Virus record (IMG/VR): IMGVR_UViG_3300031673_000527
Location: 1 to 22,360 of that record
Source of the DNA: a virus
Length of the DNA: 22,360 nucleotides
Direction: 5' to 3' (one strand)
Part shown: in pieces, positions 6,602 through 22,005 of the stretch
Position numbering within the stretch: the first letter of the stretch is position 1
How the letters are laid out: each line of letters begins with the position of its first letter
The notes under the pieces: model-generated
Seen by the model: the letters and a program-made list of their open reading frames with translations, nothing else
Told to the model about the DNA's origin: nothing
The model's database searches: none
Program-made: the position numbers and the translations under genes

Positions 6602-7372
6602 ATGGAAAAGTTAGAAGAGTTAGAAAAGAGAATAACTGAGTTAGAAAATAAAAAGGAGGTAAAAAAAGAGGAAATAATCATAAATGATAAGGAGGTTAAA
6701 ACAGAAAATAAAGAAGTGAAGGATTTTGTAAAAGGATTAGAAGATATCTACATCTTGGGGCGGGGGCAATCCTTAGGTTATGCTCCGACAACCAAAATAG
6801 AAAATTCGGAAGTCTGGGGCTGTAACAATGTCTATAAAGCAAGAGAAGTGGATAGATTATTCATTATGCACGATATTTATATGGTGCAATATTTACGGGA
6901 AAAAGATTTAATTATAGAACTTAATCAGAAGGATTTTCCTATCTATACTTTAGGTAAATACGATATCTTGAAAAATAACGTGCAGTATCCCATTGAAGAA
7001 ATTTTAAAGGAATTCGGAACATCTTATCTAATCAACAATGCTTCGTACATGCTGGCTCTGGCGATCATACAGAAACCCAAAAATATAAATCTATTTGGGA
7101 TAGATATGTCCTACGGAACGAATAATGAATACATGTATAACGAAAAGGCCTGTGTTGAGTTCTGGATTGGTATGGCAAAAGGCAGGGATATTAATTTTGC
7201 AATTTCGGAAGGGTCAACCCTGATGAAAAGAAGGGGAAGAAGTAATTATTATGGCATGTTAGAAAAATCAGATGGTCTTGCTTTTCGATTAGAACCAGAC
7301 TTTAGCTGGGGTAATAAAACAGGGAAAAGTGCTTTGAAATATAAAATCTTTAAAGTACAACATAAATTATAA
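6602..7372 (+). CDS. DUF115-like Rossmann-fold protein A, with N-terminal coiled coil
   Basis: The ATG at 6602 follows AAGGAGG at 6591-6597. Residues 1-45 are a highly charged Glu/Lys coiled coil. The rest is a Rossmann-like domain: DIYILGRGQSLGYAP (phosphate-binding-like loop), SEVWGCNNVYKAREVDRLF, IMHDI, and near the end NLFGIDMSYG and CVEFWIGMAKGRDINF. This pattern matches a phage family related to DUF115/MptE-like proteins, which in other contexts are linked to glycosyl- or pyrophosphoryl-transfer on surface structures. The reaction here is unknown. The next gene is a clear paralog without the coiled coil. Being inside a structural operon suggests a modification enzyme for virion or host surface, which is inference. 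Confidence 0.65.
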   Translation: MEKLEELEKRITELENKKEVKKEEIIINDKEVKTENKEVKDFVKGLEDIYILGRGQSLGYAPTTKIENSEVWGCNNVYKAREVDRLFIMHDIYMVQYLREKDLIIELNQKDFPIYTLGKYDILKNNVQYPIEEILKEFGTSYLINNASYMLALAIIQKPKNINLFGIDMSYGTNNEYMYNEKACVEFWIGMAKGRDINFAISEGSTLMKRRGRSNYYGMLEKSDGLAFRLEPDFSWGNKTGKSALKYKIFKVQHKL

Positions 7373-7390: not shown

Positions 7391-8050
7391 ATGGGTAAAG
7401 GAATAGAGTTTATAAAGGGTTTAGACAAAATAATTATTCTGGCACAGGGGCCAAGCTGGTATCAATGTCCAGATAAAGTGCCATCTAATTGTGAAATTTG
7501 GGGATCTAATGTAATCTACCGAGACCATTGTGCGGATAGACTATTTTTTGGGCATGATATAAGGGCACACTTTTTAGAGGATGATACTAATTTATTCGAG
7601 AATCTTAATAATTTAGATATCCCGGTTTATACCAATGCTCCATGCCTACAACTTAAGAAAAATGCTCTTATACCGATAATGGAAATTTTAGAAGAATTCA
7701 ATGTAGGATTTTTCTTGAATGTAATTGCTTGGATGATAGCAACGGCAATCTTACAGAAACCAAAATGTATAGAATTCTTTGGGGTAGATATGCGGCCGGA
7801 TGCAGGAGGAGAAACTTTTGGAAATGAAAAAGGGTCAGTGGAATTTTGGGTTGGGGTAGCGATGGGAAGAGGGATAAAATTTATGAATACTTTAGAATCT
7901 TATGTATTAAAGACTAAACAAGAAGGAATGTTTCCCAATTACCGTCCAAAAGTACCACAAGCGGGATTGATATCTCAAGTCCCCGAAGCGGATAGAAATG
8001 CGATGGCCTTACGGAACTATGTGATAGTTCCAGATGGCACAGAAATATAA
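7391..8050 (+). CDS. DUF115-like Rossmann-fold protein B (paralog of upstream gene)
   Basis: The ATG at 7391 is the only reasonable start, because an in-frame TAA sits immediately before it. The ribosome binding site AAGGAGG at 7371-7377 is therefore 13 bases away, longer than usual. An out-of-frame ATG at 7380 lies between them. The 219-aa product repeats the landmarks of its neighbour: IIILAQGPSWYQCP, CEIWGSNVIYRDHCADRLFF, GHDI, FFGVDMRPDAGG and SVEFWVGVAMGRGIKF. The GPS form of the loop is closer to the DUF115 consensus than the GQS of the first copy. The two genes probably arose by tandem duplication and then diverged. Substrate and reaction are unknown. Confidence 0.65.
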   Translation: MGKGIEFIKGLDKIIILAQGPSWYQCPDKVPSNCEIWGSNVIYRDHCADRLFFGHDIRAHFLEDDTNLFENLNNLDIPVYTNAPCLQLKKNALIPIMEILEEFNVGFFLNVIAWMIATAILQKPKCIEFFGVDMRPDAGGETFGNEKGSVEFWVGVAMGRGIKFMNTLESYVLKTKQEGMFPNYRPKVPQAGLISQVPEADRNAMALRNYVIVPDGTEI

Positions 8051-20484: not shown

Positions 20485-20617
20485 CCCGCAGATATTCTGT
20501 CCTATATGTATTACCGTTATGTTATTAACCGAAACGACAGAGGAAGGACTGGTATATATCTGTCCTAAATGCGGGTTCCAACTTAATTTAGGTTTAGTAA
20601 AGGAGGAGAATATTTGA
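20477..20617 (+). CDS. 46-aa zinc-ribbon protein
   Basis: The ATG at 20477 lies inside the end of the previous gene. The peptide contains FCPICITVM (Cys8, Cys11) and YICPKCGFQL (Cys29, Cys32), a classic four-cysteine zinc ribbon. Its stop overlaps the TTG start of the next gene (TTTGA), suggesting coupled translation. Such small ribbons occur in many phages without an assigned role; nucleic acid binding is possible. Confidence 0.6.
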   Translation: MTDPQIFCPICITVMLLTETTEEGLVYICPKCGFQLNLGLVKEENI

Positions 20618-21735
20618 CAGATTATAAATGTCCTGAATGTGGATCAAGCAAGCTAACTAAACGAGGGTTTAATCCACATAATAAACAAAGATACCATTGC
20701 ATGGATTGTGGGGGTTATCCGACAGAGGGGGCCAAAAAGCATAGGAATAAGGAAGATATAAAACCGATAGGAGAAAAATTAATAAAATTATTAACAAAGG
20801 GTAGTTTTTCTATTGAAGAATTAAGTGACAAAAGTGGATTGGTCCCCAAAGAAGTAAGAAGGATAATCACCGAATTAGAGGAAAAAAAATATAATATAAA
20901 CTATGTCAATAATAAAGTTGAACTTGCGAAAGAACTAAAACCAGGCAATATTCAAAAACTAAATATTGAATATTGGAAGGGCGACAAAATAAAATTAGGT
21001 TTCGTATCCGATACACATTTATGCTCTAAATTTGAAAGATTAAAAGAACTTAATTTGATTTATGATATCTTCGCAGACGAAGGAATTGAATTAGTCTATC
21101 ATGGCGGAAATTATATTGACGGGGAATCAAGATTTAATAAGTACGAGATACATACGAATGGAGTAACTCCACAAGTAGAATACTTTATAAACAACTATCC
21201 TAAAAGAGAAGGTGTGCTTACAAAGTTTATTGCTGGCGACGATCATGAAGGATGGTACGCCCAGAGGGAACGTATTAATATCGGTGAATATACTCAAATG
21301 AAAGCAGAACAGACAGGGAGAAGAGATTTAGAATATATCGGTTATTTAGAATGTGATATACCCTTTGAAGGCATAGAAGGCGAGTCCTGGATGAGAATAA
21401 TGCACGGCGGCGGCGGTACTGCTTATGCTCTTTCTTATACCCCACAAAAAATAGTTGAGAGTCTGCAAGGTGGAGAAAAACCCAGAGTATTACTTTTAGG
21501 CCATTATCACAAAATAGATTATTGTTTTCCGCGTGAGGTTCATGTAATACAAATGGGTTGCTATCAGGATCAGACTACCTGGATGAGGAAACAGAAAATA
21601 CAGGCACATATCGGTGGCGGTATATTGCACATGAGATTAGCTAAAGATGGAACGATTAACCGCATAATGCCAGAGTTTATTACATTCTTTAATAAGAAAT
21701 TTTATATCGGCAATGATAAATATTGGATTAAATAA
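20614..21735 (+). CDS. zinc-ribbon metallophosphoesterase
   Basis: The TTG start at 20614 follows AAAGGAGGAG at 20600-20609; no suitable ATG is near. The 373-aa protein has a transposase-like zinc ribbon (CPEC, Cys6/Cys9, and CMDC, Cys29/Cys32), a winged-helix-like part (about 48-100, ELSDKSGLVPKEVRRIITEL), then a calcineurin-type phosphoesterase. Motifs: SDTH (Asp133, His135), GGNYID (Asn166), GDDHE (Asp210, His211, Glu212), MHGGG (His264) and GHYH (His297, His299). The usual GD becomes GN and the usual GNH becomes DDH, a paired swap. The family usually hydrolyses phosphodiesters; the DNA-binding N-terminus suggests a nucleic acid substrate. In vivo substrate and role are not known. Confidence 0.75.
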   Translation: MTDYKCPECGSSKLTKRGFNPHNKQRYHCMDCGGYPTEGAKKHRNKEDIKPIGEKLIKLLTKGSFSIEELSDKSGLVPKEVRRIITELEEKKYNINYVNNKVELAKELKPGNIQKLNIEYWKGDKIKLGFVSDTHLCSKFERLKELNLIYDIFADEGIELVYHGGNYIDGESRFNKYEIHTNGVTPQVEYFINNYPKREGVLTKFIAGDDHEGWYAQRERINIGEYTQMKAEQTGRRDLEYIGYLECDIPFEGIEGESWMRIMHGGGGTAYALSYTPQKIVESLQGGEKPRVLLLGHYHKIDYCFPREVHVIQMGCYQDQTTWMRKQKIQAHIGGGILHMRLAKDGTINRIMPEFITFFNKKFYIGNDKYWIK

Positions 21736-21738
21736 TAT

Positions 21739-21817
21739 GGGGGCGAAAGGTTCGATTAAGCAAAGCCGTAAATTCGTGTACGCTTAACACTCGGGTTCGT
21801 ACCCGACGCCTCCACCA
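21739..21817 (+). ncRNA. tmRNA-like tRNA-like structure without anticodon or message region
   Basis: GGGGGCG (21739-21745) pairs with CGCCTCC (21807-21813) in a 7-bp acceptor stem with a G3-U70 wobble, followed by A73 and an encoded CCA (21815-21817). AAAGGTTCGA (21746-21755) resembles the D-loop segment at the start of tmRNA genes. TTAAG/CTTAA and CGTA/TACG (21756-21782) form a capped H2-like helix with a 6-base bulge. TCGGG (21791-21795) pairs with CCCGA (21802-21806) as a T arm with a 6-base loop, one short of normal. I could not fit a standard cloverleaf or anticodon arm. It may be a phage attachment site copied from host ssrA, a relic, or a functional alanylatable RNA. Confidence 0.6.
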
Positions 21818-21856: not shown

Positions 21857-21889
21857 ACTCTGGCTGTACTCTGGCTATACTCTGGCTGT
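21857..21889 (+). repeat. three tandem 11-bp repeats
   Basis: ACTCTGGCTGT (21857-21867), ACTCTGGCTAT (21868-21878) and ACTCTGGCTGT (21879-21889) follow one another without a gap. An 11-base period places each copy on nearly the same face of the DNA. This fits protein-binding iterons or integrase arm sites near the tRNA-like element. Confidence 0.85.
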
Positions 21890-22005
21890 TATATCGAATA
21901 TGCAGAAATATTAATGTAGCAGAGTATATTGCATTCCTAATATAACAACTTGAGGTCACAATTTGCAACCACAACAAGGCAACTTATTACACATTGTACA
22001 AAGCT

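Follow-up and report, generated by a model that had tools for sequence, protein, structure and literature searches.

The stretch of viral DNA analysed here (the window; 22,360 nucleotides in full) encodes a tmRNA that is reduced to its tRNA-like domain (TLD) and has no message. Sequence, fold, a covariance model and shuffles together place this RNA, 79 nt long with its encoded CCA, on the plus strand at 21739..21817. It is a new example of a kind so far described from a single phage, and the novelty is the breadth of the family: with the same architecture found in at least 130 viral contigs, and in six cultured phages as well, what was an anecdote becomes a viral strategy against ribosome rescue that can be put to the test. 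The probable effect of the RNA is that the virus disturbs the rescue of stalled ribosomes by the host.

The 79-nt RNA and its close relatives

All parts of the RNA are read from the plus strand. The acceptor stem is formed by GGGGGCG (21739..21745), which supplies G3, and CGCCTCC (21807..21813), with U70 at 21811; the two strands make 7 bp including G3-U70. The linker and D-loop, AAAGGTTCGA (21746..21755), keep a UUCG that corresponds by position to U16-G19 of E. coli tmRNA. The strands of helix H2, TTAAGC (21756..21761) and GCTTAA (21782..21787), covary within the clade and enclose a 20-nt insert, AAAGCCGTAAATTCGTGTAC (21762..21781), where the message domain would be and in which a small internal hairpin is possible. 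The junction CAC (21788..21790; GAC in most family members) contains the equivalent of E. coli A334, an SmpB contact, and leads into the T arm TCGGG-TTCGTA-CCCGA (21791..21806), of 5 bp and with an unusual 6-nt loop. The discriminator A73 and the encoded CCA complete the molecule (21814..21817). There is no anticodon arm in 21739-21817, H2 standing in its place in the fold, and message domain, tag frame and pseudoknots are absent from the RNA, which has the 20-nt insert only. An earlier note, made from the sequence of the window, had described just such a domain, with these stems, D-loop and CCA, with intact alanine determinants and with neither message nor anticodon arm; every one of these elements is where it had been placed, and sequence and fold agree on what is absent.

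The 79-mer folds with −27.3 kcal/mol (z −2.55), and 1 of 200 shuffles was equally stable. The window has a single instance of the combination of a 7-bp acceptor, a T arm, a TTCGA D-loop and ACCA, against 0 in 300 dinucleotide shuffles. ARAGORN, run on the window, called the RNA neither as a tRNA nor as a tmRNA, and Rfam at gathering thresholds (RF02544 included) gave zero calls for it. The tmRNA model RF00023, against which the earlier note had proposed to check the RNA, did match it, at 28.2 bits, below the gathering cut-off of 47 bits. Since tRNA-like matches to this model elsewhere climb to 32.7 bits, its score alone is weak proof; the model also matches in archaea. We dropped the score as sole proof in favour of covariation and of a covariance model, R1, built from an alignment of the family (A3) with the window's clade left out. 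R1 scored the window RNA at 41.5 bits (E 2.9e-7), three relatives (L007, L010 and L008) at 52-54 bits, a fourth (L002) at 39.4 bits and the six cultured phages at 78-93 bits, and its best non-family match in the same search was a tRNA-Ala (L082) at 28.2 bits. Across 22 bacterial genomes, R1 exceeded 35 bits in the genome of L174 only (described below), with tRNAs and chance matches at or below 35. This comparative evidence is decisive for the window RNA.

The gene preceding the RNA (20614..21735, plus strand) encodes a 373-amino-acid protein with a weak match to calcineurin-like phosphoesterases (Metallophos_2, below the Pfam cut-off). Its stop codon lies 3 nt ahead of the RNA, and it is the putative upstream gene of a joint transcript. 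A search based on this phosphoesterase-like protein found the same gene immediately 5′ of a 106-nt version of the RNA in L007 and L010 and of a 98-nt version in L008. Another IMG/VR contig, L002, came from the pattern search; it has an 81-nt relative and downstream sequence similar to that of the window, and the phosphoesterase gene is not directly upstream. The RNA was absent after the same phosphoesterase gene in L009, L011, L012 and L013, and it is therefore an accessory gene. The tail and phosphoesterase proteins of the window phage were also examined for a clue to its host; their named relatives are all remote.

Acceptor, D-loop and T arm are common to the window RNA and all close relatives. 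H2 covaries among them (UUAAGC/GCUUAA, UAGC/GCUA, UAAGG/CCUUA), as does the T stem within the window's own clade, and the insert between the H2 strands varies in sequence and length.

Several side observations concern the surroundings of the RNA. A tRNA gene (tRNA-Thr or tRNA-Trp) follows it in three of the relatives (L007:11236-11312, L010:1116-1192, L002:7222-7296), with none in the window, where near-repeats of ACTCTGGCTRT lie just 3′ of the RNA (21859-21891). Far upstream, the adjacent genes at 6602-7372 and 7391-8050 encode similar-looking proteins, an apparent duplication, the first of them without a Pfam match. Another phage with a phosphoesterase homolog encodes a full-length tmRNA called by ARAGORN (L032:14771-15136), with the tag ANSYENALPLAA.

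A widespread viral family

We scanned IMG/VR with two patterns. The first was a generic pattern that forces GGGG...CTCCACCA, which makes G3-U70 and CCA uninformative in its matches; it returned 71 stretches, of which about 70 are true TLD-only RNAs and 0 were called by ARAGORN. The second, in which the acceptor was left free, returned at least 120 stretches, and the two together gave at least 130 contigs with relatives of 78-106 nt. Among the matches listed for the acceptor-free scan there are 93 distinct sequences, of which 92 form all 7 bp of the acceptor, the same fraction has G3-U70 (92/93) and all have A73 (93/93), with CCA encoded in only 27 of the 93. The one departure, L209, has the look of a deletion or a slip in register. 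Alanine identity is under selection in the family.

Acceptor pairs 4-6 are formed in 3.0 of 3 cases, compared with 1.72 after shuffling, and their sequence varies with full compensation; H2 has a mean of 5.79 of 6 pairs against 3.17 in shuffles (acceptor-free set, among the matches listed). In alignment A3 (29 rows), 147 cells had changed on both sides, compared with 37.6 in shuffles, with 99.2% paired, and the signal was lost when partners were shifted by 1-3 columns. Covariation is strong in acceptor pairs 4-6, H2 and the T stem. The earlier note had counted a lack of covariation in homologs, or conservation of just the last 20-30 bases, against its reading; the stems do covary, and conservation spans the whole RNA.

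A typical member has 80-83 nt and an H2 of about 8 bp with a small hairpin cap, the consensus being near GAAAGCC-GCAYG-CGGAAC. Of 43 family records, 39 have the RNA above the RF00023 gathering score, each match spanning model positions 1-374 with the message deleted, and no second full tmRNA scored above that cut-off in the 43. In the window, 21760-21771 reads GCA-AAG-CCG-TAA, and L002 has GCA-AAG-CCG-TGA, a possible frame of three codons and a stop. As a hidden tag this frame was rejected, having no family-wide signal: GCN...stop occurs in 25 of 92 sequences and in 27.4 after shuffling, which is no enrichment. Nor is there a common partner gene, a candidate we discarded, as neighbouring genes differ and none recurs across the family.

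Six cultured phages carry unannotated copies: Shaeky, pSt2308, BRock and LuckySocke, phages of Streptomyces, as well as phiPsal1 (Pontimonas) and Stenotrophomonas virus Jojan60; GiJojo and Alone3 are further candidates from BLAST. Across the family, most copies have escaped annotation, since ARAGORN passes them over. The RNA sits amid tRNA genes in the four Streptomyces phages, flanked in Shaeky by tRNA-Phe and tRNA-Leu within a long tRNA array, and the acceptors of BRock (GGGTTTG) and LuckySocke (GGGTCTG) differ with G3-U70 kept. A tRNA gene lies within 150 bp in 18% of 92 loci, compared with 4% at random, and 70 of the 92 have zero tRNA genes. The Streptomyces phages among the carriers are tractable. 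The annotated 'tmRNA' genes of cr50_1, Marzo and Bajun were considered and rejected as mini-tmRNAs: R1 matches them only weakly, and the 3′ part of the acceptor is found near the annotated gene start, so that they look permuted. Separately, Tunturiibacter phage Tunturi_4 (PP885687) has an annotated RF-1-domain release-factor gene (L308:121-468), possibly ArfB-like, adjoined by a tmRNA-like acceptor sequence (L308:501-535); the pair suggests a phage ribosome-rescue cluster.

Outside viral records, the first of the two patterns, a strict one, was run on 84,980 bacterial and archaeal genomes; of the 27 stretches that it matched, one, L174, is a clear case. It lies on a bacterial chromosomal contig among open reading frames without Pfam matches, apart from one strong match to a phage family, and the setting is probably a phage island.

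Possible roles at stalled ribosomes

We favour as the likeliest reading that a phage tmRNA has been reduced to its TLD and acts as an alanylated, SmpB-binding competitor of host tmRNA at stalled ribosomes. In this reading, expression, processing, charging, SmpB binding and a benefit to the phage are inferred. The RNA would share a transcript with neighbouring phage genes or with tRNA arrays and undergo tRNA-like maturation, after which alanyl-tRNA synthetase could add alanine by way of G3-U70 and A73. In E. coli tmRNA, SmpB contacts U17, C18, G19 and A334, and mutation of G19 abolishes its binding (PMC8363625); judging by these conserved contacts, SmpB would bind the viral RNA through the UUCG of the D-loop and the junction A, and EF-Tu would follow. 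The SmpB used would be that of the host, since no SmpB gene was found in 50 records. The charged complex may then rival host tmRNA for SmpB and stalled ribosomes; as it brings neither tag nor stop codon, normal tagging would fail, and host trans-translation would be blocked or bypassed during infection. Neighbouring genes give this mechanism no partner-gene support, because they differ across the family.

Competition is favoured because an RNA of the same type inhibits tmRNA. Mycobacteriophage DS6A encodes an RNA described as little more than a TLD (Mao et al. 2009, as cited in PMC4131195 and PMC11915505), and when tested in E. coli, TLD-only RNA of the DS6A type inhibits tmRNA (PMC4131195, PMC11915505). 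The inhibition by a DS6A-similar molecule is strong whether or not the molecule can be charged, perhaps through titration of SmpB (PMC4131195). The earlier note's guess of a decoy or modulator of ribosome rescue fits this precedent. As inhibition does not depend on chargeability (PMC4131195), strict alanine identity is unexpected for a pure SmpB sponge, and the near-invariant G3-U70 and A73 suggest that charging also matters, a point on which an active role differs from a simple sponge.

The same conservation bears on a less likely alternative, active rescue without a message. Here a candidate alanine-charged mini-tmRNA would enter stalled ribosomes with SmpB, perhaps repeatedly, and transfer alanine free of a template, with nascent chains released untagged or alanine-tailed. 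A mere sponge would have no need of alanine identity, which is kept in 92 of 93 sequences (among the matches listed) in an otherwise variable acceptor. A review cites in vitro synthesis of polyalanine by SmpB and a TLD fragment in the absence of mRNA (Shimizu and Ueda 2006, in PMC3929946), and the tag-less tmRNAs of mitochondria co-occur with SmpB (PMC11915505). DS6A-type RNA, however, inhibited tmRNA and did not substitute for it, and a TLD, once translocated, may stay stuck for want of anything to resume on. We regard only tentatively the idea that the charged, message-free tmRNA works with host SmpB as an mRNA-independent donor of alanine and replaces tag-and-degrade rescue in infection.

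It is doubtful that the copy in the window is decaying, or is an inactive offshoot of a functional family. The 6-nt T loop, which the earlier note had found odd, is real, and L002 has 8 nt; because L007, L008 and L094 have normal 7-nt loops, this is a local change in the branch of the window and L002, which could reflect decay or an assembly error. The window D-loop is also one U shorter than in most members of its clade, and the RNA is missing after the same gene in the four relatives named above, as a decaying element might be. Against this, acceptor, alanine identity and CCA are intact in the window copy, the T stem differs between the window and L002 by a compensated change from G-C to A-U, and a change in the insert still allows pairing.

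It is highly improbable that the RNA is a copy of the host ssrA attachment site for an integrase (the earlier note had guessed at an attachment-site mimic of ssrA) or a piece of ssrA that stayed behind after integration. Integration at ssrA is common, and the 3′ end of the target gene is part of an att site, but here the 5′ half is conserved and the stems covary, which an att site does not require, a tyrosine integrase gene (PF00589) is present in just 4 of 50 records and in none beside the RNA, and L174, the one clear strict-pattern case among the 84,980 genomes of bacteria and archaea, is in an apparent phage island.

Comparison with known tmRNAs

With bacterial tmRNA (ssrA, RF00023) the family shares the acceptor stem, alanine identity, the D-loop, the start of H2 and the T arm. 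The bacterial RNA, in contrast, has about 350 nt with message domain, pseudoknots, resume codon and stop, and the viral RNAs have 78-106 nt without them; the window RNA has neither a message domain nor an RF00023 score above the 47-bit cut-off. The tag-less mitochondrial tmRNA (RF02544) and the tmRNAs of Mallomonadaceae plastids (~65 bp) are likewise tmRNA domains minus the tag frame (PMC11915505), but they are organellar, and the mitochondrial gene is usually permuted.

The closest likeness is to the TLD-only tmRNA of DS6A (tmID 11587 in the tmRNA Website), which, by description, is also phage-encoded, is hardly more than a TLD and has no tag frame. A 7-bp acceptor, G3-U70, A73, CCA and the absence of a tag frame are all found in the window RNA, and its D-loop, H2 and T arm form a TLD in which the 6-nt T loop deviates; that loop and an H2 closed by U-A are the window's own marks in this comparison by description. 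The entries classed as 'standard, no CDS' in a 2025 tmRNA database number nine (PMC11915505), and in the open-access PMC literature we found no phage TLD-only tmRNA by name besides that of DS6A. DS6A is one reported phage, whereas the family described here occupies at least 130 viral loci in diverse genomes.
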